Part shown: piece by piece, positions 21,164 to 36,479 of the stretch
Position numbering within the stretch: the first letter of the stretch is position 1
How the letters are laid out: the number at the start of each line of letters is the position of its first letter
Assembly: GCF_035621475.1 (NCBI RefSeq)
Contig: NZ_CP141799.1
Span: forward strand, 3,770,501 to 3,834,500
Length of the DNA: 64,000 nucleotides
Source: Pseudomonas paeninsulae
GTDB taxonomy: Bacteria; Pseudomonadota; Gammaproteobacteria; Pseudomonadales; Pseudomonadaceae
Reading direction: 5' to 3'
The notes under the pieces: model-generated
The model's input: the letters and a program-made list of their open reading frames with translations, nothing else
What the model was told of the DNA's origin: nothing
Database searches by the model: none
Translations under genes and position numbers: made by a program

Positions 21164-21727
21164 TCAACGAGCATCGATGATGAACGGCAGCTCGAGGTTG
21201 TGTTCCGGGTCGAACTGGCGGCGAGCGGTATGGTTCAGGTGACGGCCGTAGACATGGAACGACAGGCTGGTGTGCGAGGTTTCATTGATCACGCTATGGA
21301 TGCTACCGCTGGGCATCGCCAGCACCTGCCCTGCTGAAATGCACTGCTCGTCAAGGCGCTGCAGTTCGGCATAACCGGGGCGCGTGGCATCGTCCAGGCG
21401 TTGCCAGAAAATATTGCGCTCATTGCCCTCGACGCCCACCACCACCGCCCAGGTGTCGTGGTCATGGGGCGGCACGCCGCGTCCGGGCAGCCAGCTATCG
21501 ACCACCACGAACAGCGACTGATCGGCCTCGACGTGCAGCAGACTGGTGCCAAAGCCCAGGGCCGGATCGGCGCTGTACATGTCCGCCCGCAACCAACCGC
21601 GTTCGGCGACGACCCGCTTGGCCAGCGGTGCGACTTGCGCCAGCAAGCTGGCTTCATCGGCGGCGGTCGCGACGATGCGCCGCAGATCGTCGATAAAGCG
21701 TTCCAGGTTGTAACTATCGATGGTCAT
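21164..21727 (-). CDS. Cupin protein related to cysteine dioxygenase
   Basis: 187 residues from ATG 21727 (GGAGAAAA upstream; the longer frame to 21823 enters the terminator of the next gene). The cupin motif VPPHDHDTWAVVVGVEGNER gives two His and a later Glu/Asp, and MPSGSIHSVINETSHTSLSFHVYG gives the third His. This is the 3-His iron site layout of the cysteine-dioxygenase/thiol-dioxygenase group. It could oxidise a thiol or be a related metal cupin. Neighbours give no pathway. Confidence 0.7.
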   Translation of the reverse strand: MTIDSYNLERFIDDLRRIVATAADEASLLAQVAPLAKRVVAERGWLRADMYSADPALGFGTSLLHVEADQSLFVVVDSWLPGRGVPPHDHDTWAVVVGVEGNERNIFWQRLDDATRPGYAELQRLDEQCISAGQVLAMPSGSIHSVINETSHTSLSFHVYGRHLNHTARRQFDPEHNLELPFIIDAR

Positions 21728-21776
21728 CCACTTTTCTCCAGCCCAGTCGCAAGTCCGACCGGCTGCTAGGCAGCCG

Positions 21777-21814
21777 TTATAAAAAAGGCCCGCCTCCGAG
21801 AAGGAGGCAGGCCC
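21777..21814 (-). terminator. Intrinsic terminator of the first BCCT gene
   Basis: On the minus strand GGCCTGCCTCC, a 5-base loop and GGAGGCGGGCC (one mismatch) are followed by TTTTTTATAA. It begins about 24 bases after the BCCT stop codon: a textbook rho-independent terminator. Confidence 0.9.
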
Positions 21815-21837
21815 TGGTTTCACCCCACTCGCGAGGC

Positions 21838-23472
21838 TCAGCTGGCCGAGGCGCGCGGGTCGTCAGCGGTGGTCAATTGCAGGCTGGCCGCAGGTTCGCT
21901 CAGCAGCGCGCGATGCAGGGCCATGGCCATCAGCATCAGGATCACCGCGATCGGCAAGGCAGCGCAGATACTCGCGGTCTGCACGCTCTTGAGTCCGCCC
22001 GACCACAGCAGGGCTGCGGCGATGGCACCCACCATCAGCCCCCAGGCCACGCGACTCCAGGTCGGCGGATGCATATTGCCGCGCGCGGCCAGGGTACTCA
22101 CCACCAGGGTTCCGGAGTCGGCCGAGGTGACGAAGTAAGTCACGATCAGCAGCGAAGCCAGCGCCCCGAGCAGCGTGCCAAGGCTGGCACCGGCGCTCTG
22201 CTCGATCTTGTCGAACAGGGTAAATAGCGAGGAGGTGGCATCGGCCTTGGTCGCCAGCAGGATGGCACCGCCGCTGAACTCGGCGGCTTCACCGCTCAGC
22301 GCCTGACTCGCGACCTGTTCCTGGTGAGCCAGGCGATCGGCCTTCTCGTAATACAGCGCGGCGCCGCCGAAGGTACCGATCCAGACGAAGCTGAACAGCA
22401 CCGGAATAATCAACGACCCCATCACCAACTGGCGAATGGTGCGGCCACGGGAAATCCGCGCGATGAAGGTGCCGACGAAGGGCGCCCAGGTCAGCCACCA
22501 GGCCCAATAGAAGGCGGTCCACCAGTTCTGCCAGCCGGCATCGTTCTGGGTGTCGCTCCACAGGCTCATGCCGATCACGCTCTGGGCGTAACCGGAGGTG
22601 CCTTCGAGAATGGTGTTGAGAATGTAACGAGTCGGTCCGAACGCCATCACAGCGACCAGGATGACCAGCGACAACAGCATGTTCCACAGCGACAGCAGTT
22701 TGATGCCGCGGTCGACGCCGGACACGACCGACATGATCGCAACCAGGGAAATCGCCAGGATCAGGCCCATCTTCAGGCCGATGCCCAGCTCGAAGCCGCT
22801 CAGGGTCTTGATCCCGGTCGCCAGCTGCTCGACGCCGAGGCCGAAGGAGGTGGCGATGCCGAACGCGGTGACGACCACGATCAGGATGTCGAACATGCTA
22901 CCCAGCCAGCCGTTCATCCGCGCCTCGCCGAACAGCGGGGTCAGGGTCGAACGGATCGACAGTGGCTTGCCCTTGCGGAAGGAGAAGTAGGCCAGGCACA
23001 GCGCCGGCAGCAGGTACAGCGCCCAGGCGTGCATGCCCCAGTGGAAGAAGGTCACGCGCATCGCCGACTCGGCCGACTCGGCACTCAGCGTGGTGACGCT
23101 GAAGGGGTTGCCGGCGTAATGCCACATCGGCTCGGCCACCGACCAGAACAACAGGCCGATGCCCATGCCGGCACTGAACAACATGGACAACCAGGAAATC
23201 GTACTGAACTCGGGTTTTTCGCCGTCCTGGCCGAGGGTGACATTGCCGTAACGGCTGGTCATCAGATACAACAGGTAAACCAGCACGGCCGAGGCCATGG
23301 CCAAATAGAACCACTTGAAATTCTGCAGGATAGTCGTGGAAAGCTCGCCGAATAGTGCCCCGGCTTGCTCACCCATAACGGCGCAAAAGCCGACGAAGGC
23401 CGCAATTATCAGGATCGAGATCAAGGTTATCCCGGCATCGACGCCGCGAAAAACCCCGCTGGAATTACTCAT
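21838..23472 (-). CDS. BCCT-family betaine/carnitine/choline transporter (first copy)
   Basis: 544 residues with twelve predicted membrane helices. Family signatures: ISWLSMLFSAGMGIGLLFWS and WWTAFYWAWWLTWAPFVG, followed by RISRGRTIRQ. BCCT proteins import trimethylammonium compounds and related zwitterions (glycine betaine, choline, carnitine, DMSP) with Na+ or H+. The N-terminus is short and there is no long C-terminal osmosensing tail, so it is more likely nutritional than osmoregulatory. A shared 15-base motif lies at 23829, but a 202-base repeat separates it from the gene. Substrate specificity cannot be read from sequence. Confidence 0.9.
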   Translation of the reverse strand: MSNSSGVFRGVDAGITLISILIIAAFVGFCAVMGEQAGALFGELSTTILQNFKWFYLAMASAVLVYLLYLMTSRYGNVTLGQDGEKPEFSTISWLSMLFSAGMGIGLLFWSVAEPMWHYAGNPFSVTTLSAESAESAMRVTFFHWGMHAWALYLLPALCLAYFSFRKGKPLSIRSTLTPLFGEARMNGWLGSMFDILIVVVTAFGIATSFGLGVEQLATGIKTLSGFELGIGLKMGLILAISLVAIMSVVSGVDRGIKLLSLWNMLLSLVILVAVMAFGPTRYILNTILEGTSGYAQSVIGMSLWSDTQNDAGWQNWWTAFYWAWWLTWAPFVGTFIARISRGRTIRQLVMGSLIIPVLFSFVWIGTFGGAALYYEKADRLAHQEQVASQALSGEAAEFSGGAILLATKADATSSLFTLFDKIEQSAGASLGTLLGALASLLIVTYFVTSADSGTLVVSTLAARGNMHPPTWSRVAWGLMVGAIAAALLWSGGLKSVQTASICAALPIAVILMLMAMALHRALLSEPAASLQLTTADDPRASAS

Positions 23473-23532
23473 AGCATGTGCTCCATTGTTATTGTCGGTA
23501 TGCCTCTGGGCACGCTGGGCTCAGGGCGAGCT

Positions 23533-23734
23533 AACAGGCCGTTGAAAAACTACTGCGCTCGGTTATGCGGCGTTGAAATCGGCCTAAAAATGCTCATTTA
23601 CATCACGTAAACTGCGCTTTTGACTCACTACGCTCGCCCTGCGGGCCAGCCTTTGGCTGTTACTCCGCTTCGCTGCGTTGCGGCCGATTTCGCCTTGCCT
23701 AGCCTTCGCTCGCTACATTTTTAAACGGCCTGTT
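23533..23734. mobile_element. MITE-like repeat A (202 bp)
   Basis: Ends are inverted repeats: AACAGGCCGTTGAAAAA (23533-23549) and TTTTTAAACGGCCTGTT (23718-23734), 16 of 17 pairing. Further in, GAAATCGGCC recurs in inverted orientation at the same distance from both ends, so the whole element can fold. There is no coding capacity. It sits between the regulatory motif at 23829 and the BCCT start at 23472. Confidence 0.75.
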
Positions 23735-23828
23735 GATGAATCTGTGCGGCTGCCTCCAGGCTGTTTTATCAGCCCCGATAATTCGATAAAAAACAATTTC
23801 TGACACATGATTTTTATACGTGCAATTA

Positions 23829-23843
23829 ATGCGTTTTAGTCAT
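23829..23843. promoter_or_regulatory. Shared regulatory motif, copy 1 (first BCCT gene)
   Basis: ATGCGTTTTAGTCAT, embedded in a longer similar block (ATTTTTATAC...AATTAATGCG...). It is related to the motifs at 26012 and 34916. The distance to the BCCT ATG is 357 bases, or 155 bases if the 202-base repeat is removed, which matches copy 2. Confidence 0.6.
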
Positions 23844-24092
23844 TAATCGACGCGCAACATCGCGTGTTTCCGCCGCACGAAAAAGCACTCGAGTTTGCAC
23901 GCGGAAACCACCCTGACCGGGGCAATATCACTCTTCATAAGTTTGCTAAGTGAATCCGCACGCCACGCCGAAACATAACGAGCGGATGATTATTTCGCGG
24001 CTGACTATAGGGTCATGGGGCAACCCAAAAGTATTCTATCCACGTCCTCCGCCGATCCATTCGCGCCAAATCCGGCGGTTCAGCGGACGCTA

Positions 24093-24275
24093 GAGGCAGG
24101 CTAGTGGCCTGTACGGCTAGTTGGTTAACTCAAGTTCGGATGACTGAGGTTCTGAGACAAGGCGCTGCGACGAGTCATAGCTGGCTATGGCGAGGAGCAG
24201 CAACGCAGTATCAGGGCCTCAGGCGCCGAAATTGACTAATTGAACTAGCCACACAGGCCACGAGCAGCCTGCCTC
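24093..24275. terminator. Hairpin downstream of second BCCT gene, split by MITE-like repeat
   Basis: GAGGCAGGC (24093-24101) and GCCTGCCTC (24267-24275) are perfect complements directly flanking repeat B copy 1. Without the repeat they would form a 9-base stem about 25 bases past the BCCT stop, as a terminator would. Confidence 0.45.
24102..24261. mobile_element. MITE-like repeat B, copy 1 (about 160 bp)
   Basis: Starts TAGTGGCCTGT and ends ACAGGCCAC (inverted). By eye it is about 90% identical to the reverse complement of 28844-29005. No coding capacity. The flanks form an inverted repeat of their own (see the split hairpin), so it was probably inserted into a terminator loop. Confidence 0.8.
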
Positions 24276-24300
24276 CTCGACCATGCGGCGAAGCCGGAGG

Positions 24301-25854
24301 TCAGCCGCGCGGCTCCTGACTCAGCGCCTTGAGAAAGCCGATCATCAGGAACAGCATCAGCACCATGAACGGCAGGCCCATGGCCACGGCCCCAGCCTGA
24401 ATGCCTTTGAGCGCCGTATCACCGCCAATCACAAATAGCGTGATGGTCACCAGGGCAATCATCACCAGCCACAGCACGCGCTGCACCGGCGAGGTACCCG
24501 GATCGCCACCCGCCGCCAGGTTGTCGACCACCAGGGCACCGGAGTCCATGGAGGTGACCATGAAGATGACCAGCAGGACCACCACCAGCACCGAGGTGAT
24601 GGCCGCCAGCGGCAGCACTTCGAGGAACTGGAAGATCGCCATGTTGACGTCCGTCAAACCGGCGGCCAGCGCGCCACTGCCGTCAATTACCTGGGCAATT
24701 GCACCGCCACCGAAGGCGCTGAACCAGAAGATCGCCACTATGGTCGGCACCACCATGACCACCCCGACCATCTGCCGCAGCGTGCGGCCCCGGGAGACGC
24801 GGGCGACGAACACCCCGACCAGCGGACCCCAGGTGCACCACCAGGCCCAATAGAACACCGTCCAGCCCTGGAACCAGTCCTGATCCGGACGATCGACCCA
24901 GTTGGCCAACGGCAGGAAGAACTCGACAAAGTCGACGGTCGTATCCAGCACGCCCGAGAAGAAGCTCAGCACGCCAATACCCGCGACCACCAACAGGAAC
25001 AGGCCCAGCGCCAGCAGCATGTTGATGTTGCTGAGTAGCTTGACCCCGGCATCCATACCGCGCCACAGCGAGAATCCGGCCACGCCGGTCACCACCAGGA
25101 TGAACAGCAACTGCAGGCCGAAGGAGTTGGGGATGCCCAGCACGTGCGAGATCCCGGCGGTCGCCTGCATGGCGCCGAGGCCCAAAGAGGTGGCAAGGCC
25201 GAACACCGTCAGCACCACGGTGAAGGTATCCACCAGTTGCCCGGGCAGCCCCCTGTGCGCCTTGCCAATCAGCGGCTGCAGGCCGGAACTGAGGGAAAAC
25301 GGCAGACCCTTGTTATAGGCAAAGAAACCCACCACCAGCGCACTGGTCAGGTAGATCGCCCAGGGATGAAAACCCCAGTGGAAGATGGTCGAACCCATGG
25401 CCGCATGCAGCGCTTCAGGGGTCTGTTTGGGTACGTTGAGCGGGGTCTTCCACCACTCGGTGTATTGCGCCACCGGTTCAGCCACGCCCCAATACAGCAG
25501 GCCGACGCCCATCCCGGCGGCGAACAGCATGGAGAACCAGGACAGGGTGCTGAACTCAGGCTTGGCGTGTTTACCGCCCAGGCGGATCTTGCCGAACGGC
25601 GACAGCGCCAGGCCGGCGCAGAACAGCACGGCCAGATTGCCCATGATCATGATGAACCAGTCGCAGTTCTTCAGGATCCAGCCCTTGGTTCCCTCCAGGG
25701 CCTCGCCAAAGGCCGCAGGGTCATTCAGGGCCAGCAACACCAGAGCCAGCACGATAGAAAATGAAGCAGGAAAAATAACCCGATGGAAGTTCAAACCCAG
25801 TATCTGGATATTGAAATTCCGGGGCACTGAAGCATCGGCAGCAATGTCTTTCAC
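24301..25854 (-). CDS. BCCT-family betaine/carnitine/choline transporter (second copy)
   Basis: 517 residues starting at GTG 25854 (GAGGA seven bases upstream; no ATG in reach). Twelve-helix BCCT protein with STLSWFSMLFAAGMGVGLLY and GWTVFYWAWWCTWGPLVG, then RVSRGRTLRQ. It is clearly divergent from the first BCCT gene, so not a recent duplication. It would bring a betaine-like substrate to the catabolic genes upstream. The shared motif at 26012 lies 158 bases before the start. The stop is followed by the hairpin split by repeat B. Confidence 0.9.
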   Translation of the reverse strand: MKDIAADASVPRNFNIQILGLNFHRVIFPASFSIVLALVLLALNDPAAFGEALEGTKGWILKNCDWFIMIMGNLAVLFCAGLALSPFGKIRLGGKHAKPEFSTLSWFSMLFAAGMGVGLLYWGVAEPVAQYTEWWKTPLNVPKQTPEALHAAMGSTIFHWGFHPWAIYLTSALVVGFFAYNKGLPFSLSSGLQPLIGKAHRGLPGQLVDTFTVVLTVFGLATSLGLGAMQATAGISHVLGIPNSFGLQLLFILVVTGVAGFSLWRGMDAGVKLLSNINMLLALGLFLLVVAGIGVLSFFSGVLDTTVDFVEFFLPLANWVDRPDQDWFQGWTVFYWAWWCTWGPLVGVFVARVSRGRTLRQMVGVVMVVPTIVAIFWFSAFGGGAIAQVIDGSGALAAGLTDVNMAIFQFLEVLPLAAITSVLVVVLLVIFMVTSMDSGALVVDNLAAGGDPGTSPVQRVLWLVMIALVTITLFVIGGDTALKGIQAGAVAMGLPFMVLMLFLMIGFLKALSQEPRG

Positions 25855-26182
25855 GCAAGGATCCTCACTGTATTGTTTTTGTAGTCATGCCAATACCGAA
25901 CAGCGTTTTAATGGCGTTAACCGCCAATAAAAACACACCCGCCGAATTGAACAGATAAGTGATGGTCGGGTAGCTACGCGCTCGCCACAAATCATTTTAT
26001 GTGCGCAATTAATGACTTTTGATCATCCATGCGCGTAACCAATCACAGCATCAATCGCAGACACTGGCGCAGGTCAGACCTGCCGCCATTAGCGCCGGTT
26101 AATCAGCCTCCTGAACCCGCGTTCCGGCTATTGTTTATTGGCACATAGGCCCTGACTCAGGACGCGTACTTGGCACGACCGT
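25855..26182. other. Intergenic region upstream of second BCCT gene
   Basis: 328 bases holding the shared motif copy 2 (26012-26026) and presumably the BCCT promoter. I see no gene and no clear terminator for the M24 gene that ends at 26183. Confidence 0.7.
26012..26026. promoter_or_regulatory. Shared regulatory motif, copy 2 (second BCCT gene)
   Basis: ATGACTTTTGATCAT with ATGA...TCAT arms, preceded by ATTTTATGTGCGCAATTA. It lies 158 bases upstream of the GTG start. It matches copy 3 at 14 of 15 bases. Confidence 0.65.
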
Positions 26183-27430
26183 TCATAACCAATCGTCCTG
26201 CCAGGGGTATTGCGACAGTGCCTGGCAGCCATCGCGGGTGATCAGCACCTGTTGTTCGAGCTTGATGCCCTCTTTGCCGCCGCGCTCGCCGATATAACTC
26301 TCGACGCAGAGCACCATGTTTTCCTCGATGATCCCGTCGTAGCCGCTGCTGTCCCAGTCCGCCCCCTTATGCGCCAGGGCCGGGTACTCGTCGGCCAGGC
26401 CGACGCCATGCACCACGCAGCAATAACGGTTGTGCTGATAGGGCTGGGGAATGTCCCAGGCACGCTGGACGAACTCGCGGTGGCTGATGCCGGGGCGCAG
26501 CAGGTCCATGTTGTGATGCACCTGCTCGAAGGCCAGGGCATACAGCTTGCGTTGCTCGGCCGTCGGCGCCACATGGCCGACGGTCCAGGCCCGCGAGATG
26601 TCTGCGCAGTAGCCGTAGGGGCCGATCAGGTCGGTGTCGAACGAGACGATTTCACCCTGCTGCATCAGCCGCTCGCTGGACTCCTGCATCCACGGGTTGG
26701 TGCGCGGCCCGGAGGCCAGCAGGCGAGTCTCGATCCACTCGCCGCCGTGGCGGATGTTCTCGTAGTGCAGCCAGGCCCACAGCTGGTTTTCGCTCATGCC
26801 CGGACGCTGCTCGTCGTGCATGCGCTGGATGCCTTTCTCGCACACGGCGATGGTCCAGCGCATCAGCTGCAGTTCGGCGGCGGACTTAATCTTGCGCGCC
26901 TCCTCCATCAGGCTGTGGCCCTCGACCAGGGTCAGACCCTGCGCCTGCAGCAGTTCGAGCCCCTCGAAGTCGGCCTTGTCCACCGCCAGCCGGGCGCCTG
27001 CGCCGGCGTGCTGACGCAGCAGCTCGACGATTTCCGACGCCCACAGCTTGGCCTTCTCGGAAATCCGCGAACCGGCGCCGAAGTAGCTCCAGCTCACCGC
27101 ATGACGGATCTCGTCGAGCAGGCCGTTGCCCTCGTGCAGGTGCTCGCAGTTGTGGAACTCGAAGAGGATCACCGGGCCCGTGGCAAACACCAGGGCGTAG
27201 CGGGCGAAGTTGTGCAGCGTCCACACCTGCATGTTCGAGGTGTCGGTGGCGTAGCGGATGTTCACCGGGTCGTACAGCAGGATCGCCGCACAATCGGCGG
27301 CCAACAGCTGCTCGCGCACCCGCTGCAGGCGATAGGCCCGCGCCGCCTCCAGGGTCTGGGCGCTGACCGGGTTGCGCAACGGCTGGTTGGCGGACTCGCC
27401 GCTCGGGTACTTATTCTTGTTGTCGAACAT
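26183..27430 (-). CDS. M24-family metalloprotein resembling DMSP lyase DddP
   Basis: 415 residues with a creatinase-like N-domain (about 30-180) and a pita-bread M24 C-domain. All six metal ligands are present: D265, D267 and D277 (SFDTDLIGPYGYCADISR), H341 (VVHGVGLADE), E377 (CVESYIGE) and E392 (KLEQQVLI). The Asp spacing (0, 2, 12) equals that reported for DddP (D295/D297/D307). Blocks such as NIRYATDTSNMQVW and GGEWIETRLLASGPRTNPW closely resemble what I recall of DddP. DddP cleaves dimethylsulfoniopropionate to DMS and acrylate; other M24 proteins are peptidases or ectoine/creatine hydrolases. The fold is certain; DMSP lyase activity is a hypothesis. Confidence 0.8.
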   Translation of the reverse strand: MFDNKNKYPSGESANQPLRNPVSAQTLEAARAYRLQRVREQLLAADCAAILLYDPVNIRYATDTSNMQVWTLHNFARYALVFATGPVILFEFHNCEHLHEGNGLLDEIRHAVSWSYFGAGSRISEKAKLWASEIVELLRQHAGAGARLAVDKADFEGLELLQAQGLTLVEGHSLMEEARKIKSAAELQLMRWTIAVCEKGIQRMHDEQRPGMSENQLWAWLHYENIRHGGEWIETRLLASGPRTNPWMQESSERLMQQGEIVSFDTDLIGPYGYCADISRAWTVGHVAPTAEQRKLYALAFEQVHHNMDLLRPGISHREFVQRAWDIPQPYQHNRYCCVVHGVGLADEYPALAHKGADWDSSGYDGIIEENMVLCVESYIGERGGKEGIKLEQQVLITRDGCQALSQYPWQDDWL

Positions 27431-27477
27431 GCGCTGGATTCCAGTGAACAGACTCGGATTAAAGGGACGCTGTTAGG

Positions 27478-28776
27478 TCAAACGCCCGATCGCTCGGGCA
27501 GTGCAGTCATCGCCGGCTGGGCTGCTGATTGCGGCTCTGCTTCGCTCGGGCTGGCCGGCTCGATCGCAGCGGCCAGGGTGGCGCTGGCCAAGCCGACTGG
27601 CGTGGCCTGGTGATGCAGCGGCGCATCCTCCTGCAGGTGCGCGCCGCTGACCTTGCCCTGGCCGACCGATAGGGCCAGTAGCGCAGCGCAGGCGGCGGAA
27701 AAGTAGTACAGGCTGGAGGCGCCGAACCACTCCATCAGCGCGCCGGCCAGCAACGGGCCGATAGCGGCGCCGACGCCGTAGGTCACCAGCAACAAGCCGG
27801 CCAGGGACACGCGCAGTTCGGCTTCGATATTGTCGTTGGCCAGGGCCACGCCCAGCGGATACAGGCAGAACTGCAGAAAGCCGATGCAGGCGCCGACCAG
27901 CAGCAGGACGCCGAAGGACGGTTGCTGAGAGAAACCCAACGGCAGGCAGGCGAGGACCAGCAGCACCGCCACGCCACGGATCAGGCTGGCTCGCGGCAAG
28001 CGATCGGACAGCCAGCCCAGGGGCAGTTGGGCGAGCAGGCCGGCGCCGATGATCATCGCCATGAACTGGCCGACCTCGGTGGTATCCAGACCCTGGCGAC
28101 TGGCATAGATGGCCGCCAGGCCGAAGAAGGCGCTGTAGATCATCCCGGCCATCAGCACGGTGACCAGCGACTGCGGCACCCGCTGGATAAACAGCTTGAT
28201 ATCGACAGGCGCCGGCTGCAGCGCGGCCGGGTGCATGCTGCGAGTCAGGGCCACCGGCACCAGGCACAGGGCAAAGGCCATGGCCACGCCGAGCAGCGCG
28301 TGGATGCCCAAATCGCCCTTCCAGCTCAGGGCCAGCTGGCCGAGCACCATGCCGACGTATATCGCCACCATGTAGATGCCCAGCACCTTGCCACGCTGGT
28401 CGCTGCGGGCGCGGTCGTTGAGCCAGCTTTCCAGCACCATCAGCTGGCACATCATCGCCAGACCGACCAACGCGCGCAGGAATAGCCAGAACGGCAAGGC
28501 ACTGCTGAATTCGTGGGCCAATACGGCCGCGGAAATCACCCCGCCACAGGCGACATAGGTGCGGATATGCCCGACCCGCTGGATCAGCACGCGCCCGACC
28601 TTACCGCCGGCCACCATGCCCAGGGCGTTGGCGGCCATCAGCGCGCCACCCCAGAACTCGGCCACCCCGTCGGCGCTCAGGCGCAGCGCCAGGTAGGTCA
28701 TCAGCAGGGTCGAGCCCAGCTGCATCAACAGGCTGGCCAGGTACAGGGCGCCGAAGGTCTTAGTCAGTCCGAGCAT
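27478..28776 (-). CDS. MFS transporter
   Basis: 432 residues, twelve membrane helices of the major facilitator superfamily (YcaD/YbfB-like small-solute group). The loop motif GGKVGRVLIQRVGHIR between helices 2 and 3 is a variant of the MFS signature, and LSDRLPRASLIRG is its repeat in the second half. The gene is 47 bases upstream of the M24 gene and on its strand, so the two are probably co-transcribed. It could export a breakdown product or import a related substrate. A strong hairpin (28805-28836) precedes its start. Confidence 0.85.
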   Translation of the reverse strand: MLGLTKTFGALYLASLLMQLGSTLLMTYLALRLSADGVAEFWGGALMAANALGMVAGGKVGRVLIQRVGHIRTYVACGGVISAAVLAHEFSSALPFWLFLRALVGLAMMCQLMVLESWLNDRARSDQRGKVLGIYMVAIYVGMVLGQLALSWKGDLGIHALLGVAMAFALCLVPVALTRSMHPAALQPAPVDIKLFIQRVPQSLVTVLMAGMIYSAFFGLAAIYASRQGLDTTEVGQFMAMIIGAGLLAQLPLGWLSDRLPRASLIRGVAVLLVLACLPLGFSQQPSFGVLLLVGACIGFLQFCLYPLGVALANDNIEAELRVSLAGLLLVTYGVGAAIGPLLAGALMEWFGASSLYYFSAACAALLALSVGQGKVSGAHLQEDAPLHHQATPVGLASATLAAAIEPASPSEAEPQSAAQPAMTALPERSGV

Positions 28777-28804
28777 GCGTGGCTCCTTGGCCAGAACGAA
28801 GAAA

Positions 28805-28836
28805 GCCGCCGCTCCCGGTTAGGGGAATGCGGCGGC
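28805..28836 (-). terminator. Terminator/attenuator between the Rieske operon and MFS-M24 genes
   Basis: GCCGCCGC plus TCCC pair with GGGA plus GCGGCGGC around a 6-base loop. On the minus strand it is followed by TTTCTTCGTT. It lies 29 bases before the MFS ATG, so it either ends the Rieske operon or attenuates read-through into MFS-M24. Confidence 0.65.
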
Positions 28837-28843
28837 GAACAGA

Positions 28844-29005
28844 TAGTGGCCTGTGTGGCTAGTTCACTTAGTCAAGTTCGGCGCCTGAGGTCCCGAGGCT
28901 GCGTTGCCGCTCCTCACCATAGCCAGCTATGACTCGTCGCAGCGCCTTGCCTCAAGCCCCCAGTCATCCGAACTTGAGTTAGCCAACTAACCGTACAGGC
29001 CACTA
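28844..29005. mobile_element. MITE-like repeat B, copy 2 (162 bp)
   Basis: Perfect 11-base terminal inverted repeats, TAGTGGCCTGT (28844-28854) and ACAGGCCACTA (28995-29005). Opposite orientation to copy 1 at 24102. It lies between the cupin stop (29019) and the hairpin that ends the Rieske operon. The two copies bracket the BCCT-M24-MFS block (about 4.6 kb). Confidence 0.85.
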
Positions 29006-29018
29006 GGGCGAAGGCCTG

Positions 29019-29390
29019 TCAGGCCAAACCGTGACGCTGCTTCCAGTCGCCCGGATGGACCACGTAACCGAACAGCGCATGGCCGCCGTAGACCAGCTCG
29101 GTGCCTTCCGGTATCCACAGCAGCTGGCCCGGCTTGACCCGGTACAGCTCACCGTTGGCCTGCAGCTCGAAACAGCCTTCGATGACGAAGATCACCTCGT
29201 CATACAGCAGGGTCCAGTGGACCTCGGCGCCCTCCCAGCGGGCAAAGCCGATACCGATATTCGGCGACACTTCATTGCTGATGGCGCGGGCGACAAAGGC
29301 GGCGCCGGGCGGACCGCCACGCGGGATGAACTCCAGGTCATGGTGATCGACCAGCAGCACCGGACCTTTTCCAGAAACGACCTGACTCAT
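29019..29390 (-). CDS. EutQ-like cupin
   Basis: 123 residues in an ATGA overlap with the upstream FAD oxidoreductase gene. Single cupin domain: EGAEVHWTLLYDEVIFVIEG carries the EutQ-type W-L-YDE signature, and PGQLLWIPEGTELVYG is cupin motif 2. The metal ligands are weak. EutQ-like cupins accompany several amine-degradation operons; their chemistry is mostly unsettled (EutQ itself has been linked to acetate kinase activity). Here it is the last gene of the Rieske operon. It is not one of the longer DMSP-lyase cupins. Confidence 0.75.
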   Translation of the reverse strand: MSQVVSGKGPVLLVDHHDLEFIPRGGPPGAAFVARAISNEVSPNIGIGFARWEGAEVHWTLLYDEVIFVIEGCFELQANGELYRVKPGQLLWIPEGTELVYGGHALFGYVVHPGDWKQRHGLA

Positions 29391-30715
29391 AACTCACTCC
29401 GACTGTTCCAGGCCGCCAGGCGAATGCGCGAGCGCACGCCGAGACCGAGGAAGGGTTCCGGCGGATTCAGCGACGGCATGCCGGTAACTGCCTGGATGTC
29501 GCGCAACTGCGCCGAATCGGCACCCACCGCCAGATCGGCCAGCAGGGTGCCGGAGATGGTGCCCCAGGCTGCGCCGACGCCGTTGTCGCAGGCCGAGGCA
29601 TAGACGCCCTGCTCCAGCTCGCCGAAGAAGTTGGTGAAGTTGCGCGAGATGGCGTAGACGCCGCCCCAGGTGTGGCTGAACGGTACGTTGGTCAGTTGCG
29701 GGAAACGCGCCAGGAAGGCCTTGCGGTGATCCTCGCGCACACTGGCGCGCATGGCATCGCTGGTGCTCTGACCGTACTTGGGCACGTGCTTATAGGTGTT
29801 GCGAATGATCAGACGGCGATCCTGAGTCATGCGCACCGTGGTGCCGGCGTGGTCGGCTGGGGTCAGGCCCCAGTCGAGCTGGCCGCCATACACCTGCAGT
29901 TCGCTGTCGGTCAGCGGCCGGGTCCAGCTGGCGAAGGTCATCACCGGCAGCAGGCGGTTGCGCAGGTAGCCGAACTCCTGGGTGAAGATGCTGGTGCCGA
30001 GCAACAGCTGCGGGGTGCGGATGCGGCCGTTATTGCCGTGCAGAATCCAGCCGCCCTGACCGTCACGCTCCAGGCGCTGGATCGGCGACTCTTCCAGCAA
30101 CTCGACGTTGCCCGGCAGCGAGCGGCCAAGGCCGGTGACCAGCGCCGCCGGCTGCATTAGGTAGCAACCCGGGGTGTAGATCGCCCCGCTGTAATGGCCG
30201 GTGCCAAGCACCTTGGCCAGCTCGGCACGCTCGACCCGGTGGAACGGCTCGCCGAGGTCGCTCATCAGCTTCTCGAAATGATCGAGGTAGGCCAGACCAC
30301 GCGGGCCCACCGCGCCCTGGTACTTGCCGGCATGCGACCACTGGCAGTCGATCTTGTGGCTCTGGATCAGCCCCTGCAACTGGGCGATGGCGGCGCGATT
30401 TAGCGCCAGCAGGCGCTGCTTGTGCGCCGGGTCTGGATGCTCCAGGGCGAACTTGTGCGGCAGGTCGATGACGAAGCCGGAGTTACGCCCGGAGGCGCCA
30501 TAGGCCACGCGCTGAGCGTCGACCAGCAGGATGCGCGCCTCTGGATGGTGCTCGGCCAGGCGCCGCGCGGCAGCCAAGCCGGCGAAGCCGGCGCCGATCA
30601 CCGTGTAGTCGGCGCGCTGCTCGCCCTGCAGGCGGGTGCAGGCCGGTTGCTCGGGCAGAGCCGCATACCAGCCGCAGCTGGCGTCGTCGTAAGGCAACTT
30701 GATGGTATTTTTCAT
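29387..30715 (-). CDS. FAD-dependent amine oxidoreductase (DadA/PuuB-like)
   Basis: 442 residues from ATG 30715 (GAGGG upstream; longer frame to 30832 ignored). N-terminal dinucleotide motif VIGAGFAGLAAARRLAE (G41-G46), then YGASGRNSGFVID, and a C-terminal FAD loop WGGVYAISRNFTNFFGELE, as in the D-amino-acid oxidase/gamma-glutamylputrescine oxidase/sarcosine oxidase superfamily. It oxidises a C-N bond to an imine and releases an amine or formaldehyde. Ten bases downstream of the rubredoxin-reductase gene and overlapping the cupin, it is central to the amine catabolic operon. The actual substrate is not known. Confidence 0.85.
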   Translation of the reverse strand: MKNTIKLPYDDASCGWYAALPEQPACTRLQGEQRADYTVIGAGFAGLAAARRLAEHHPEARILLVDAQRVAYGASGRNSGFVIDLPHKFALEHPDPAHKQRLLALNRAAIAQLQGLIQSHKIDCQWSHAGKYQGAVGPRGLAYLDHFEKLMSDLGEPFHRVERAELAKVLGTGHYSGAIYTPGCYLMQPAALVTGLGRSLPGNVELLEESPIQRLERDGQGGWILHGNNGRIRTPQLLLGTSIFTQEFGYLRNRLLPVMTFASWTRPLTDSELQVYGGQLDWGLTPADHAGTTVRMTQDRRLIIRNTYKHVPKYGQSTSDAMRASVREDHRKAFLARFPQLTNVPFSHTWGGVYAISRNFTNFFGELEQGVYASACDNGVGAAWGTISGTLLADLAVGADSAQLRDIQAVTGMPSLNPPEPFLGLGVRSRIRLAAWNSRSEL

Positions 30716-30725
30716 GCTACCGCCC

Positions 30726-32141
30726 TCAGGCCACGGCCCGTTGCGCGTTCTGACAGGATTGCAGCCAGCTGTTGCGCTGCAATTGTGCTTGGCGACCGAG
30801 CAGGACGAAGCCGTGCAACGCCCCCTCGGCATCGTAATAACCGGCGCTCAGGCCATCGTCGGTAGCCGTGCAGCGCCATTCGCCGGTTACGCCAACAGCA
30901 GGCGGCAACAGGCACAGCGGCGCGGCCGGGGTCTTCACCGTCACCGGCATCAGCGGATAGCTGACCGGCGTCGGCTGGCCGAGCAGGGTCTTGCTCAGGG
31001 CCTGGATGCCCTGGTTGATCGGCGCCAGGTAGGGCAGCAGCTGACCGTTGATCTCGATGCAATCACCGAGGGCGAAGATCCCCGGCTGCGAGCACTGCAA
31101 CTGGGCGTCCACCTGAATGCCCCGACCCACGGCGACGCCGGCCGTCTCGGCCAGGCCCAGGTTGGGCCGCAGACCGACGGCGGACAGCACCAGGTCGGCG
31201 TCCAGGCTCTGGCCATCGGCGAGTGTCAGGCGATAGCCCTGCTCGGCCGAGTCGATGCGCTGCACGGTGTTTTGCAGGTGCCAGCTCACGCCCATCTCGC
31301 CCAGGGCGGCCTGTAACTGCTGACCGGCCTCGACCGGCAGCAGACGCTCCATCGGCCACTGACCGAGGCCGATGACGCTGACTTGGAAGCCGCTGCTGGC
31401 CAGATCGTTGGCAAACTCGCAGCCGATCAGGCCGTCACCGAGGATCGCCACCCGCTGCACGCCGACCAGGCGCTCACGGAAGCTCTGATAGTCGTGCAGA
31501 TTGTTGACGCTGAGCAGCGCGCCAGTGTCGCCCTCGATCGGCAGACGAATCGGCGCCGCACCGCTGGCCAGCACCAACTGGCCGTAGTCCATCTCGCCGA
31601 TGTTGGTGTGCAGGCGCCGCGCCACGGCGTCGATGCGCTCGACCGTGCAATACGGGTAGACGCGGATCTTCAGGCGCTTCTCGATCGCCAGGGCCGACTC
31701 GCCCGACAACGCTGCGGCGCTCTTGCCCTGGGCCAGGCCGATGGACAGCGCCGGCTTGGAATACAGATGACCCGACTCCTGGGTCAGTACGCGGATCTCG
31801 ACCAGCGGATCGGCCCGGCGCAAGGCCTGAGCCAGGCCATAGCCGGCGTAACCGCTGCCGATGATCACGATCGGCTGACGCAGCTGGGAGGCGGCCGGTT
31901 TTGCCGTTGCTGTCAGCGCCTGCGCCGACACGGGAGCGGTAACCGGCACACTGACGGCGGCGACAACCACAGGGCTGATATCGAGCATCTCGAAATCGTC
32001 CTTGCCGACGCCGCACTCGGGGCACTTCCAGTCCTGCGGCACATCGTCCCAGCGGGTGCCGGCAACGATGCCGTCATCCGGCCAGCCGAGGGCCTCGTCA
32101 TAGATCAAACCGCACACTACACAGAGCCAGGTCTTGAACAT
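30726..32141 (-). CDS. Rubredoxin - NAD(P)H:rubredoxin reductase fusion
   Basis: 471 residues from ATG 32141. Residues 1-52 are a complete rubredoxin with Fe ligands C7, C10 (CVVCG) and C40, C43 (CPECG). A Pro/Ala/Val-rich linker (about 55-88) leads to a two-dinucleotide-fold flavoprotein (IVIIGSGYAGYG at 91-102; second GDGLIGCEFAN for NAD(P)H; IFALGDCIEI for FAD). It should carry electrons from NAD(P)H through FAD to its own rubredoxin centre. The gene lies between the aldehyde dehydrogenase and the FAD oxidoreductase in the Rieske operon, so the likely acceptor is the Rieske oxygenase. That is unusual: such oxygenases normally use [2Fe-2S] reductases. Confidence 0.92.
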   Translation of the reverse strand: MFKTWLCVVCGLIYDEALGWPDDGIVAGTRWDDVPQDWKCPECGVGKDDFEMLDISPVVVAAVSVPVTAPVSAQALTATAKPAASQLRQPIVIIGSGYAGYGLAQALRRADPLVEIRVLTQESGHLYSKPALSIGLAQGKSAAALSGESALAIEKRLKIRVYPYCTVERIDAVARRLHTNIGEMDYGQLVLASGAAPIRLPIEGDTGALLSVNNLHDYQSFRERLVGVQRVAILGDGLIGCEFANDLASSGFQVSVIGLGQWPMERLLPVEAGQQLQAALGEMGVSWHLQNTVQRIDSAEQGYRLTLADGQSLDADLVLSAVGLRPNLGLAETAGVAVGRGIQVDAQLQCSQPGIFALGDCIEINGQLLPYLAPINQGIQALSKTLLGQPTPVSYPLMPVTVKTPAAPLCLLPPAVGVTGEWRCTATDDGLSAGYYDAEGALHGFVLLGRQAQLQRNSWLQSCQNAQRAVA

Positions 32142-32146
32142 GTCGC

Positions 32147-33592
32147 TTACTCCCCCGCGATGCGGATTGCCACGTTCTTGGTACGCACGTAGCTGTACAA
32201 GGCTTCCTGGCCCTTTTCCCGGCCAAAACCGGACAAACCGACGCCGCCGAACGGCGTCTCGATGCCGCCGGCATACCACTCGTTGACGAACACCTGGCCG
32301 GCCTTGAGGCGGCGCGCGCAGCGCATGGCGCGGCTAATGTCCTGGGTGAACACGCCGGCGACCAGGCCGAACTCGGTGCCATTGGCAATCGCCAGGGCCT
32401 GTTCCTCGGTATCGAAGGGGATGATCGCCAGGACCGGGCCGAACACCTCTTCCTGGGCGATGCACATCTCGGGGCTAACGTCGCGGAACACGGTCGGGCG
32501 CATGAAATGCCCGGCCCTGTCGCTGAAAGCCTCACCACCGGTGGCCGCTACCGCGCCCTCCTCGATGGCGCGTCGGCACAGGGTTTCGATGCCGGCCAGT
32601 TGCCCGGCGCTGACCACCGGGGTGAGGTCAGGGTTGTCCTGGCCGAGGCCGACACTGAGGCCTTCGGCCAGGGCGACGACGGACTCGACGATTTCTTCAT
32701 AAATCTCGCGTTGCACCAGCAGGCGCGACATGGCCGAGCAAACCTGGCCGGCGTTGAAGAAAATGCCGCCCTTGACGCTGGCCAGCAGCTGCTGACGATC
32801 GGCGTCGGCGAAGGCAATCGCCGCCGACTTGCCGCCCAGCTCCATGACGCTAGGAATGGCGTGCTCGGCGGCGTCACGCAGGATGGTCTGGCCAGTCGGT
32901 ACCGAGCCAGTGAAGACAATCTGATCGATATCCGCATGGCCAACCAGATGGCTGCCGACCTCACGGCCACGGCCGCAGATCAGGTTGACCGCGCCCTGCG
33001 GCAGGCCAGCCTTGGCGATGGCGCGAATCAGTACGCACATGCCCAGCGGCGACAGTTCCGGCGACTTGATCACCACCGCATTACCGGCGGCCAGGGCCGG
33101 AGCCAGCGAGCGGGCACAGATCGACACCGGGAAGTTCCAGGGTACGATCTGCGCCGAGACGCCCATCGGGTCATAGAGGGTGAAGTCCATGTAACCGTTG
33201 CCCAGCGGGATCGAGGTGCCCTCGATCTTGTCGGCCATGCCGGCGTAGTACTCGAAGTAGCGCGCCGCCTCGGTGAACTCGTCCTTGGCGTCATTCAGGC
33301 TCTTGCCGTTTTCCTGGCACAAGACCCAGGCGCCCTCGTCGGCCACCGCGCGAATTTCTTCGGCGATGCGCAGCAGCCAGGTGACCCGCTGCGCCGGACG
33401 CACGCTGCTCAGCGCGCCACTGTCGGCGCAACGTCGGGCCGCCTGCACGGCACGCTCGGCATCGGCGACAGAGGCCTGAGCGATAGTCGCCACGGGCTCG
33501 GCGGTGCCGGGATTGTTCACCGTCAGGCGCGACTCGCTATCGAGCCACTCACCGTCGACGTAGTTCAGCCAATGTTTGGCAATCGGATACAT
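32147..33592 (-). CDS. NAD(P)-dependent aldehyde dehydrogenase
   Basis: 481 residues from ATG 33592 (GGAGG upstream). Catalytic Cys C285 (FFNAGQVCSA), general base E251 (VMELGGKS), oxyanion Asn N153 (VPWNFP) and the cofactor motif FTGSVPTG. It resembles betaine-aldehyde/aminobutyraldehyde dehydrogenases (BetB/PatD type). It would oxidise the aldehyde released by the oxygenase or FAD enzyme. It is 10 bases after the Rieske gene and 5 bases before the rubredoxin-reductase gene, firmly within the operon. Confidence 0.93.
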   Translation of the reverse strand: MYPIAKHWLNYVDGEWLDSESRLTVNNPGTAEPVATIAQASVADAERAVQAARRCADSGALSSVRPAQRVTWLLRIAEEIRAVADEGAWVLCQENGKSLNDAKDEFTEAARYFEYYAGMADKIEGTSIPLGNGYMDFTLYDPMGVSAQIVPWNFPVSICARSLAPALAAGNAVVIKSPELSPLGMCVLIRAIAKAGLPQGAVNLICGRGREVGSHLVGHADIDQIVFTGSVPTGQTILRDAAEHAIPSVMELGGKSAAIAFADADRQQLLASVKGGIFFNAGQVCSAMSRLLVQREIYEEIVESVVALAEGLSVGLGQDNPDLTPVVSAGQLAGIETLCRRAIEEGAVAATGGEAFSDRAGHFMRPTVFRDVSPEMCIAQEEVFGPVLAIIPFDTEEQALAIANGTEFGLVAGVFTQDISRAMRCARRLKAGQVFVNEWYAGGIETPFGGVGLSGFGREKGQEALYSYVRTKNVAIRIAGE

Positions 33593-33602
33593 GCTGGCCT
33601 CC

Positions 33603-34793
33603 TCAGGCGGACGGTACGGTGGCCAGCAGCTGACGCGCAGCCCACTGATGGAAGAAGTGGGTCGGTACATCCATCTCCGGGGAGAAGGCGCCGCCCTTGT
33701 AGCCCGGCGAATGACGACCTTTCTGCATGCCCTCTACCGAGCTGATGTCCTCGGCGAACACCACCTTCCAGGATTCCAGAATGGCGTTACGGCAAGCCGC
33801 GTACTCGTCGCCCAGGGCCTCGTCGCCGACGTAGAACAGGCGCAGGTGCTCGATGGTGCGACCCGGCGCGACCGGCTCCAGCTGCATGGCGAAGGCGTGG
33901 TCGGCCTGGATGCCGAGCAGCACGTTGGGGAAGATGGCCACGTACTCGGCGTTGCGCAGACGGTCCTGCGGCCAGCTCGGGAACTTCGGCAGGTGGGTGC
34001 CGGCGACGTCAGACAGGTTGTAGGCGTAGCTGCCCTGACCGGCGAAACGCTCGTCGAACAGGATGTTGTAGTGGTCTTCCAGGCGCGAATAGGCGTTCAG
34101 GCTCGGGTGCACCCACGGCAGGTGGTAGGCCTCGCAGTAGTTCTCCACTGCCAGCTTCCAGTTGCAGTTGATGTCCAGGGTGGTGGCGTCCATGTGCGCG
34201 CGGCGGCGCAGCAGGCCCATGCCGTCGTCACCGAGGAACTGGCTCCAGCGCGCAGTCAGCGGCGCGAGCATGTCTTCCAAGGCCTCGGCATCGCCGGACA
34301 GGTTGACGAACACCATGTCCATCCAGATGGCACTGCGGATGGCCTTCAAGCCGTGCTTTTCGCAGGCGAAGCGCTCGTCCTTGTGCACGTCGATGCCGCC
34401 GACGTGCGGCGTGCCGCGCAGGCCGCCATTCAGGTCGTAAGTCCAGGAGTGGTAGGGGCAACGGATCACGCCCTGCACGGTGCCTTCTTCCTGCACCAGC
34501 TTCATGCCGCGGTGGCTGCAGACGTTGTGGAACACCTGCACCAGACCCTCGCGATTGCGCATCAGCAGCAGCGGCAGGCCCATGAAGTCGACCGGCTTGA
34601 CCGAGCCGTTCTGGGTCAGGTCGCTGGCGAAACCAACACAGGCCCAGGTCTTGCCCATCACCTGATCGCGCTCCAGCTCGAAATGACGCTGCTCGATATA
34701 AAACTCGTTAGCCAGGCCAGTGGCCTCATGGATCGGGTTGAGGACAGTTTCCAGTTGTTGCACCGGAATATGTTGAGCGATGGAGTTGGTCAT
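33603..34793 (-). CDS. Rieske non-heme iron oxygenase, alpha subunit (quaternary-amine type)
   Basis: 396 residues. Rieske [2Fe-2S] ligands C92, H94, C112, H115 (NVCSHRG ... RCPYHSW). Catalytic Fe ligands H224, H229 and D349 (ENYCEAYHLPWVHP; AEDISSVEGMQ). The residue that bridges the Rieske and iron centres, three before the first His, is Glu (E221), not the usual Asp. A Glu here is known from carnitine oxygenase CntA and relatives acting on quaternary amines. No beta subunit is encoded, as expected for this alpha-only class. First gene of the operon, with the shared motif 123 bases upstream. Likely N-demethylation or C-N cleavage of a betaine; exact substrate unknown. Confidence 0.92.
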   Translation of the reverse strand: MTNSIAQHIPVQQLETVLNPIHEATGLANEFYIEQRHFELERDQVMGKTWACVGFASDLTQNGSVKPVDFMGLPLLLMRNREGLVQVFHNVCSHRGMKLVQEEGTVQGVIRCPYHSWTYDLNGGLRGTPHVGGIDVHKDERFACEKHGLKAIRSAIWMDMVFVNLSGDAEALEDMLAPLTARWSQFLGDDGMGLLRRRAHMDATTLDINCNWKLAVENYCEAYHLPWVHPSLNAYSRLEDHYNILFDERFAGQGSYAYNLSDVAGTHLPKFPSWPQDRLRNAEYVAIFPNVLLGIQADHAFAMQLEPVAPGRTIEHLRLFYVGDEALGDEYAACRNAILESWKVVFAEDISSVEGMQKGRHSPGYKGGAFSPEMDVPTHFFHQWAARQLLATVPSA

Positions 34794-34915
34794 TGTTGTT
34801 CTCCCCTGCTGGGCACGGTGACTGATTGATCGGCAGGCTCGCTGGCCAGGTCCGTTGGCAGCGAGTTTCGAGAATCTGGGGATAGTTCGACAAACGATTT
34901 TTAACAGCTGGATTT

Positions 34916-34930
34916 ATGACTTTTAATCAT
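34916..34930. promoter_or_regulatory. Shared regulatory motif, copy 3 (Rieske operon)
   Basis: ATGACTTTTAATCAT, preceded by GATTTTTAACAGCTGGATTT, 123 bases upstream of the Rieske ATG. The near-palindrome ATGA-N7-TCAT with T-N11-A-like spacing is compatible with a LysR-type regulator site. Confidence 0.65.
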
Positions 34931-35492
34931 CCGTTCAGCAGTACATGTTCAGCGGCTTGATTGGCCGCTGCCAGCCCAGTAACGGGGACTTGCATATGCG
35001 CAACGATCATCAATCCATGACAATAAATGGCTTGCTCGAGGGGCCGGGGAAACGCAACTGTAGCCACCACCAAACCAGCCACGCGGAATCAACAGGAGGC
35101 CTACATCAGCGGACCGCTGCAGCACCCGACTGCGCGCGACAGACGCCCACACGGGTTTGCCTGCCCTGGCGCAGGTCGATAGATTTGAACGGATTTATCG
35201 GGTGCTATTGGTGATGCCGGCAGGCTGGAAAGCATCCAACAGCCATCGATCAGCGAATTCATCCTGCACCTGAGTTTTGTCACGACGCGTTGCTTGCGTC
35301 AGGCAGCTCCGCTGGCCTTCCCACGCCATCACCGGGATACCAGTCGCTAACGCAGGAACACTCCCAGGACGACCCCGGCATTGCGCCTAGGGTCGTGCTG
35401 GGCGGGGCCACTCCCCTCGCGCTACCCGCGCGAAAGGCCTGCTGAGGAATAGCCGCGCATAGTCCAAAACTAGCGCCGCGACTGCTCCATGC

Positions 35493-35527
35493 AACGCTGC
35501 CGCAGGCCACAAGCCTGCGGCAGCGTT
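35493..35527 (-). terminator. Terminator hairpin after the LysR-type gene
   Basis: AACGCTGCCGCAGGC / GCCTGCGGCAGCGTT: a perfect 15-base stem with a 5-base loop, starting 17 bases after the stop codon. Only a short T-run follows. Confidence 0.75.
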
Positions 35528-35543
35528 CGTTTCGGCCCGCTAG

Positions 35544-36479
35544 TTATGCGCCAGCACCGAGCGTTGCGTCGTCCAGCGCAGGCGGCAACTGCTCAAGTAA
35601 CCAGGCGCGGAAGCACTTAACGCTCTGACGCATCGCACCCCGCCCGAGCGGCTCGAGCAGGCAGAACTGCGCATCCGACTGCAACACGGTATCGATCGGC
35701 CTAACCAGGGCGCCGGTCTGCAGGTGGTTGTCGACCAGGTTCGACCAGGCCAGCGCGATGCCCTGGCCACTGAGCGCCGATTGAATCAGCATCGAGTAAC
35801 TGTTGATATTGATCCGCCGCCTGGGTTCGATGCCTTTAAGACCCAGGCGCTGGAACCACTCGGACCAGCCGATCCAGTCGCGCTGCGGATCTTCCAGCCA
35901 CAGCCAGGTGCAGTCGGCCAGCTGCTGCGGGGTGCTCAGCGTCGGGTTCTTGGCCAGATAGCCCGGGCTGCACACCGGGAACACTTCCTCGGCAAACAGC
36001 GGCGTCACCTGCATGTCCTTCGGCGGGGTGCGGCAGTAGTACAGCGCCAGGTCGCAATCCAGGCGGGAGAAATCCTTGACCTGGTCATAGGCGATGATGC
36101 GCAGGTCGATCTCTTCGTTATCGCGCTGAAACTCCGCCACCTTGGGCAGCAGCCACAACGAGGCCATCGCCGTACTGGTGACCACGGTCACCTGCTGGGC
36201 GCCCTGCCAGTGGCGAATCTCACCGGTGGCATGGGCCAGTTGCATCAACGCGGTTCGCACCGTCTCATAGTACTGGCCACCGGTCGGGCTCAAGTTGATC
36301 GCCCGTGTAGTGCGTTCGAACAGAGTCTTGCCCAGGTAGTCCTCGAGCAGGCGCACCTGGCGGCTGATCGCGCCCTGGGTGACGTTCAGTTCGTGCGCGG
36401 CCAGGGTAAAACTCAGGTGGCGCGCAGCCGCTTCGAAAGCCACCAGGCTGTTGAGTGGAGGCAGGGGATGGATTTTCAT
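35544..36479 (-). CDS. LysR-family regulator (GcvA-like), candidate controller of the betaine island
   Basis: 311 residues from ATG 36479 (the frame extends to 36545 without a better site). N-terminal winged HTH, LPPLNSLVAFEAAARHLSFT ... AAHELNVTQGAISRQVRLLE, the GcvA/AmpR-type start. The effector domain (about 95-300) has VTVVTSTAMASLWLLPKVAEF and DCDLALYYCRTP. It lies next to the Rieske operon on the same strand. Three near-identical motifs upstream of the Rieske operon and both BCCT genes are plausible targets. Effector unknown. A weak version of the motif (TGTTTTAGTTATG) also lies just before its own start. Confidence 0.88.
   Translation of the reverse strand: MKIHPLPPLNSLVAFEAAARHLSFTLAAHELNVTQGAISRQVRLLEDYLGKTLFERTTRAINLSPTGGQYYETVRTALMQLAHATGEIRHWQGAQQVTVVTSTAMASLWLLPKVAEFQRDNEEIDLRIIAYDQVKDFSRLDCDLALYYCRTPPKDMQVTPLFAEEVFPVCSPGYLAKNPTLSTPQQLADCTWLWLEDPQRDWIGWSEWFQRLGLKGIEPRRRININSYSMLIQSALSGQGIALAWSNLVDNHLQTGALVRPIDTVLQSDAQFCLLEPLGRGAMRQSVKCFRAWLLEQLPPALDDATLGAGA

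Follow-up and report, generated by a model that had tools for sequence, protein, structure and literature searches.

Here we describe a conserved operon of Pseudomonas paeninsulae, found in a 64,000-nucleotide stretch of DNA (the window; positions 3770501-3834500 of a 5.35 Mb genome), that encodes a Rieske oxygenase alpha subunit (ROx), an aldehyde dehydrogenase (ALDH), a rubredoxin-rubredoxin reductase fusion (RdRR), an FAD amino-acid/amine oxidase (DAO), and a EutQ-like cupin, accompanied by a LysR-type regulator and BCCT transporters. Judged from its sequence, the operon fairly likely serves the catabolism of a zwitterionic quaternary ammonium osmolyte, with rubredoxin feeding ROx. Its gene content, operon structure, conservation, and the integrity of its domains and motifs were observed directly, and the features on which the argument turns are the following.

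35544-36479, minus strand: LysR-type regulator resembling GcvA (284.7 bits, cut-off 288), on the same strand as ROx and 750 nt upstream of it
33603-34793, minus strand: ROx, the 396-aa alpha subunit of a Rieske oxygenase; passes the Pfam gathering cut-offs for Rieske and Ring_hydroxyl_A
34131-34133, minus strand: codon of E221, the Glu aligned at the bridging position (Glu in 190/191 rows)
32147-33592, minus strand: ALDH, betaine-aldehyde-dehydrogenase-like; Aldedh domain, with scores too low for any of the 25 NCBIfam models shown
30726-32141, minus strand: RdRR; N-terminal rubredoxin, FAD/NAD rubredoxin reductase, and C-terminal rubredoxin-binding domain (Pfam)
31992-32129, minus strand: rubredoxin domain PF00301 of RdRR, with motifs CVVCG and CPECG
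30756-30968, minus strand: Rbx_binding domain PF18113 of RdRR (Pfam)
29387-30715, minus strand: DAO, of the glycine oxidase / sarcosine oxidase / proline dehydrogenase fold group
29019-29390, minus strand: EutQ-like small cupin (Pfam EutQ), with a 4-nt overlap with DAO
24301-25854, minus strand: BCCT transporter 2 (Pfam BCCT)
21838-23472, minus strand: BCCT transporter 1 (Pfam BCCT)

These genes, together with the MFS, M24, and small cupin genes described further below, all lie on the minus strand. The core is tightly packed, with 10 nt between ROx and ALDH, 5 nt between ALDH and RdRR (counted from the ATG at 32141, which we took as the RdRR start), 10 nt between RdRR and DAO, and -4 nt between DAO and EutQ; because of these gaps, the core genes are likely a single transcription unit. 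The spacing is looser downstream (EutQ-MFS, 242 nt; M24-BCCT2, 328 nt; BCCT2-BCCT1, 828 nt). Gathering scores were passed for the Pfam families Rieske, Ring_hydroxyl_A, Rubredoxin, Pyr_redox_2, Rbx_binding, Aldedh, DAO, EutQ, Peptidase_M24, MFS_1, BCCT, and LysR_substrate, and every gene that an earlier, sequence-only reading had named at 21838-36479 is present, on the minus strand. That inventory had overlooked the DddP-like nature of the M24 protein, the thiol-dioxygenase-like gene, and the nearby putA-putP pair. It had also called the FAD oxidoreductase DadA-type; an FAD oxidoreductase it is, but alignment by profile and by model places it better in the glycine oxidase / sarcosine oxidase / proline dehydrogenase fold group. 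A phmmer search of PDB sequences with DAO alone gave no match, while its profile and its model did match.

The sequence-only reading had drawn attention to a Rieske gene lying near a rubredoxin-reductase fusion, and a search of genome neighborhoods bears this association out. A genome scan gave 292 confirmed ROx relatives, the best 80 of which form our named loci, a sample that is for this reason biased toward close relatives from the operon's own clade. ROx, ALDH, RdRR, DAO, and EutQ are collinear and codirectional in 76/80 of these loci, so the association of the five core genes is not due to chance. Of the other four, L010 and L025 are shorter than 6 kb and were left unscored, L072 ends within the cluster, and L088 is without a EutQ match. 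LysR was scored in 77/80 loci (the unscored L010 carries it as well) and BCCT also in 77/80, with MFS at 43/80, M24 at 20/80, and the thiol-dioxygenase-like cupin at 3/80. The operon is shared with many bacteria of water and soil. Named carriers are, among others, Pseudomonas, Stutzerimonas, Massilia, Thauera, Denitromonas, Vibrio, Photobacterium, Pseudoalteromonas, Oceanisphaera, Oceanimonas, Zobellella, Acinetobacter, and one Pluralibacter. The nearest named relatives are Pseudomonas, and for Pseudomonas sp. CC6-YY-74 (L018) identity to the window is 94-100% over nine genes, LysR through BCCT2. A ROx tree of 110 rows, made by a quick method that leaves several long branches uncertain, likewise puts the window among Pseudomonas, in a 59-row clade (SH-aLRT 98) within a 71-row clade (96).

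The distribution of ROx is patchy. With the source genome counted in, it is found in 5/57 relatives at E<=1e-60, in 17/390 genomes of the order at E<=1e-110, and, at E<=1e-80, in 13/369 genomes of the class and 22/398 of the phylum; 48/385 sampled alphaproteobacteria also carry it at E<=1e-80. DAO is present at E<=1e-60 in 36 of the 289 alphaproteobacteria searched, and 21 of these 36 also carry ROx at E<=1e-80 (Fisher p 5.9e-10 from a conservative table, relatedness not corrected).

ROx has the features of a Rieske non-heme iron oxygenase of the quaternary-amine (Glu-bridge) class: the Rieske ligands C92, H94, C112, and H115, the iron-site residues H224 and H229, and a Glu, E221, at the bridging position. 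We take the roles of the Rieske and iron-site residues from the family; D349 is likely the third iron ligand, as judged from the sequence. In an alignment of 191 rows, which was not deduplicated and includes three Rieske paralogues of the source genome, all six ligand residues are kept in 191/191 rows and E221 is Glu in 190/191. The sequence-only reading had compared E221 to the Glu of CntA-type enzymes, and it does align with the Glu of the MECYH motif in CntA, which has the bridging role there; because 190/191 rows carry Glu, this residue marks the wider class and not CntA alone. A structure model of ROx was poor (mean pLDDT 48.6) and was not used.

Two known quaternary-amine enzymes were considered as identities for ROx, and both were rejected. 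GbcA, of the same oxygenase class, is its nearest NCBIfam model (NF058607), but the score is 133 bits against a cut-off of 670. The source genome holds a true GbcA elsewhere (804.7 bits), which indicates that ROx has another job, and also a second GbcA-like gene at 497.7 bits, below the cut-off. Carnitine monooxygenase is the best PDB sequence match of ROx, at 116.5 bits, and the CntA/CntB operon shares with ours the Glu at the aligned bridging position and the ALDH, BCCT, and LysR genes. CntA/CntB splits carnitine into trimethylamine and malic semialdehyde, and CntB is a reductase of the flavin/[2Fe-2S] type. No Fer2/FNR-type match that could represent such a partner was found among the ten proteins scanned between 21838 and 36545, and the identification with CntA was dropped on this ground. 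Here, the rubredoxin/reductase fusion replaces CntB, DAO and EutQ are extra, and the cluster contains no mdh gene.

The window's RdRR carries PF00301, PF07992, and PF18113 above their cut-offs in one chain and is thus a rubredoxin-reductase fusion. In 89/89 loci with an RdRR match, the fused rubredoxin has all four Cys, with CxxC-CxxC in the same reading frame; a stricter cysteine pattern matched 16/89 of the rubredoxin domains. These 89 are 78 named loci plus L112-L115, L138, L139, and L187-L191, taken from plasmid records and further genomes; the 11 additions may repeat named species, and L191 is cut by a contig end. The closest solved sequence relative of the reductase part is the P. aeruginosa protein PDB 2V3A (282 bits), whose rubredoxin is a chain of its own (2v3b), whereas in RdRR the two are fused. 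The copy in this operon is an extra one, as the source genome also holds two tandem separate rubredoxins and another rubredoxin reductase.

Loci in which the operon has been rearranged suggest which enzyme RdRR belongs to. In L188-L190, ROx, ALDH, and RdRR are contiguous while DAO-EutQ lies beyond LysR on the opposite strand, an arrangement that ties RdRR to ROx more than to DAO. Because L188-L190 are three genomes of one genus, this is perhaps a single event. In the 41 alphaproteobacterial ROx neighborhoods (L111, L117-L136, and L239-L258, some cut by contig ends), no RdRR was found beyond a 24% match in L253. In 5/41 (L111, L118, L119, L251, and L257), a VanB-like reductase gene adjoins LysR-ROx instead, and both of the two such reductases scanned have a Fer2 ([2Fe-2S]) domain. 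Taken together, the fusion in 89/89 loci, the movement in L188-L190, and the [2Fe-2S]-type reductase in its place in 5/41 suggest that RdRR is probably the electron donor of ROx. The rubredoxin donor proposed by the sequence-only reading is thus strengthened by evidence of movement and replacement.

Several observations weigh against this reading of the operon. A VanB-type reductase was not found in 36/41 alphaproteobacterial neighborhoods, an adjacent ALDH match occurs in only 3/41 (L111, L119, and L240), and the window's DAO is 30-46% identical to DAOs of 36 alphaproteobacterial genomes. Moreover, L116 (genome G054) has ROx-ALDH-DAO-EutQ without RdRR, and the single rubredoxin-binding reductase of that genome is located elsewhere; a dedicated RdRR is therefore not essential. 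L187, from the same genus as L116, does carry RdRR. The lack of RdRR in L116 favors the possibility that RdRR does not serve ROx at all and acts with another partner or in protection from oxidative stress, with ROx being fed by an unlinked [2Fe-2S] reductase such as that of GbcA. Rubredoxin reductases do have other known partners, and the true GbcA in the genome leads one to expect a matching reductase elsewhere. We nevertheless regard this alternative as unlikely, since RdRR sits between ROx-ALDH and DAO-EutQ in 76/80 loci and stays with ROx in L188-L190, and no other Rieske-type reductase was found among the ten proteins scanned.

The sequence-only reading had further noted that it had not seen a rubredoxin donor described for this enzyme class. 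For the quaternary-amine class, searches of open-licence PMC listings likewise gave no report of rubredoxin with betaine- or BCCT-linked Rieske systems. Among Rieske systems at large there is precedent: rubredoxin is named with naphthalene and o-xylene oxidation in Rhodococcus in an excerpt of PMC5209329. The substrates there are aromatic and the host is actinobacterial, whereas here the rubredoxin shares a polypeptide with its reductase, and the oxygenase belongs to the quaternary-amine class. The quaternary-amine case would be new, unless a 2026 paper on homarine, discussed below, already describes it.

From the gene set, we infer an electron route, an order of reactions, and a type of substrate. 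The BCCT transporters would import the zwitterionic quaternary ammonium osmolyte, whose presence LysR probably senses. ROx would use O2 to hydroxylate a carbon adjacent to the ammonium nitrogen, so that a methyl group is removed or a C-N bond is opened, with electrons passing from NADH to FAD, to the covalently attached rubredoxin of RdRR, and on to the Rieske cluster of ROx. The N-methylated or cyclic amino acid so produced would go to DAO for oxidation, and the aldehyde formed to ALDH. In two other loci, ROx-ALDH is followed by other genes of the N-demethylase type, namely, a DMGDH-like gene with a folate domain in L111 and soxBDAG-like genes in L137, where soxA and soxB fall below the NCBIfam cut-offs. 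Separately, DAO homologues in L280 and L284 adjoin genes of MttB-superfamily methyltransferases (PF06253, >700 bits), possibly a corrinoid route feeding the same oxidase.

If the reading of the operon is correct, it would give quaternary-amine Rieske oxygenases a new class of electron supply and provide an NADH-driven, one-polypeptide donor useful in vitro. It would also assign a pathway to an operon of Pseudomonas, Acinetobacter, Vibrio, Photobacterium, Pseudoalteromonas, Oceanimonas, and others, and would bear on which organisms consume methylated osmolytes in soil and sea.

That the island takes up and oxidizes a betaine-like compound, as the sequence-only reading proposed, is supported in part by the BCCT genes at 77/80 loci and by the carnitine monooxygenase match of ROx. 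Which compound this would be can be said only tentatively. Our leading candidate, possible but well short of probable on sequence grounds, is a proline or hydroxyproline betaine, whose products would enter the metabolism of glutamate or 2-oxoglutarate. One gene beyond LysR, at 38648-43475, lies putA-putP (putP, 689 bits against a cut-off of 515.5; putA, 1602 against 747). A DHDPS-ALDH-DAO gene set, which we take to resemble that of hydroxyproline breakdown, adjoins ROx in L240 and lies ~10 kb from it in L292. A number of findings count against a proline-type substrate, however. The putA-putP adjacency is confined to the window and 7/80 loci, all close relatives; we rejected it as proof of proline betaine and kept it as a hint. 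No DHDPS gene is present in the window operon, and the full DHDPS-ALDH-DAO set accompanies DAO in only 6/18 alphaproteobacterial DAO neighborhoods. The eight DAOs nearest to that of the window (40-45%; L286-L291, L295, and L296) are without the set, which goes with more distant DAOs; for this reason, the set was rejected as proof of a hydroxyproline-type substrate, and such a substrate is held weakly. The ALDH-ROx pairing, finally, also fits CntA-like C-N cleavage. The stretch just upstream of the island (36595-43475) encodes an AhpC/TSA and 2OG-Fe(II) oxygenase domain protein, followed by putP and putA.

In a CntA-like scheme, an acyclic betaine (gamma-butyrobetaine, valerobetaine, beta-alanine betaine, or similar) would be cleaved to a tertiary amine and a semialdehyde, with ALDH oxidizing the semialdehyde and DAO an amine product. 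The carnitine monooxygenase match favors this scheme, as does the carnitine operon of A. baumannii, which according to an excerpt of PMC11353897 likewise contains lysR, bcct, cntA, and a gene for a semialdehyde dehydrogenase, although it is described without a DAO. ROx is only distantly related to CntA, however, and an mdh-type gene was not found among the ten proteins scanned. In addition, the ROx operon of L089 is accompanied by another Rieske-ALDH pair, distantly related (25% and 34%), which may be a cnt pair. We rate CntA-like cleavage as quite improbable.

Homarine (N-methylpicolinate) is a serious rival to a proline-type substrate, although as an explanation of the operon it too is on the unlikely side. 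Under this proposal, gamma/betaproteobacteria would carry their version of the homarine pathway in this operon: ROx would attack the pyridinium ring, ALDH would oxidize the aldehyde from ring opening, and DAO or Mgd would demethylate N-methylglutamate. The substrate would again be an N-methylated zwitterion, and gene count and taxonomic spread are possibly alike. The 2026 Nat Microbiol paper on homarine (doi 10.1038/s41564-026-02313-7) reportedly describes an operon homABCDER with N-methylglutamate and glutamate as products; the five core genes plus LysR would agree with the letter count of that name, and the order ROx-ALDH-RdRR-DAO-EutQ-LysR is found in L059, L065, and L112. Alphaproteobacteria with single-contig genomes of 1.2-1.4 and 2.75 Mb also have ROx homologues, and these are of the kind of clade that the paper reportedly concerns. 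An excerpt of PMC13390433 cites the 2026 pathway paper and gives Mgd a role in the breakdown of homarine. Against homarine, ROx lies outside such an operon in L243 (2.75 Mb), L241, and L242, the genomes that most resemble those clades, and the 41 alphaproteobacterial neighborhoods are without RdRR beyond the 24% match in L253 noted above. Furthermore, no report tying hom genes to Rieske proteins or rubredoxin was found in the literature searched, which did not include the 2026 paper itself.

Returning to the proline-type betaine, a fuller claim built upon it is somewhat more doubtful than the substrate assignment itself. It would hold that this is a widespread, undescribed gamma/betaproteobacterial operon in which such a betaine is degraded by ROx with a dedicated fused rubredoxin donor, rubredoxin having replaced the [2Fe-2S] carrier along one branch of the family.

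The far end of the island carries accessory genes, two of them linked to dimethylsulfoniopropionate (DMSP).

27478-28776, minus strand: MFS transporter, accessory (MFS_1; 43/80 loci)
26183-27430, minus strand: M24 protein of the DddP (DMSP lyase) group, accessory (Peptidase_M24; 20/80 loci)
21164-21823, minus strand: thiol-dioxygenase-like cupin, 14 nt after BCCT1 (best PDB matches 3-mercaptopropionate dioxygenases, 73 bits; 3/80 loci)

The M24 protein matches PDB 4b28 (RdDddP) at 346.6 bits. The metal ligands and candidate bases of DddP are named in an excerpt of PMC4108388, and the window's protein keeps 8/8 of these residues (ligands D295, D297, D307, H371, E406, and E421, plus Y366 and D377; 4rzy numbering), which are invariant in 13/13 aligned proteins. 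Its score of 429.1 bits is below the DddP equivalog cut-off of 600 (NCBIfam NF043017), and by sequence we place it as a relative of DddP. A Pfam scan of the thiol-dioxygenase-like cupin gave no match. It is very unlikely that the island serves mainly for DMSP, with the M24 protein cleaving it and the cupin handling 3-mercaptopropionate: the residues and PDB matches agree with such roles, but the M24 score is below cut-off, both genes are accessory, and DAO would have no role. For this last reason, DMSP was rejected as the main substrate of the core, and the M24/DddP-like, BCCT, and thiol-dioxygenase-like genes may instead be a second, DMSP-related module.

Other genes recur near ROx in several loci. 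A protein of ~80 aa without a Pfam match (L111, 14619-14858) follows ROx or ALDH in 14/21 alphaproteobacterial neighborhoods. Close to ROx in L111 (18584-25073) and L113 (2532-10237) is a module of DUF3726, a ~560-aa protein, an M19 dipeptidase, a BCCT transporter, and an ALDH resembling KGSA dehydrogenase, with parts of the DUF3726/M19 dipeptidase/BCCT module near ROx in L241 (about 3000-6000) and at the start of L192. In L241 and L242, alphaproteobacterial genomes of 1.2-1.3 Mb, genes for MTHFR-like and DmdA-like folate proteins precede ROx (families scanned in L241 only). Elsewhere in the window, positions 47990-49267 encode a protein of the serine beta-lactamase family (PF00144, 236 bits), possibly a resistance enzyme or another serine hydrolase.

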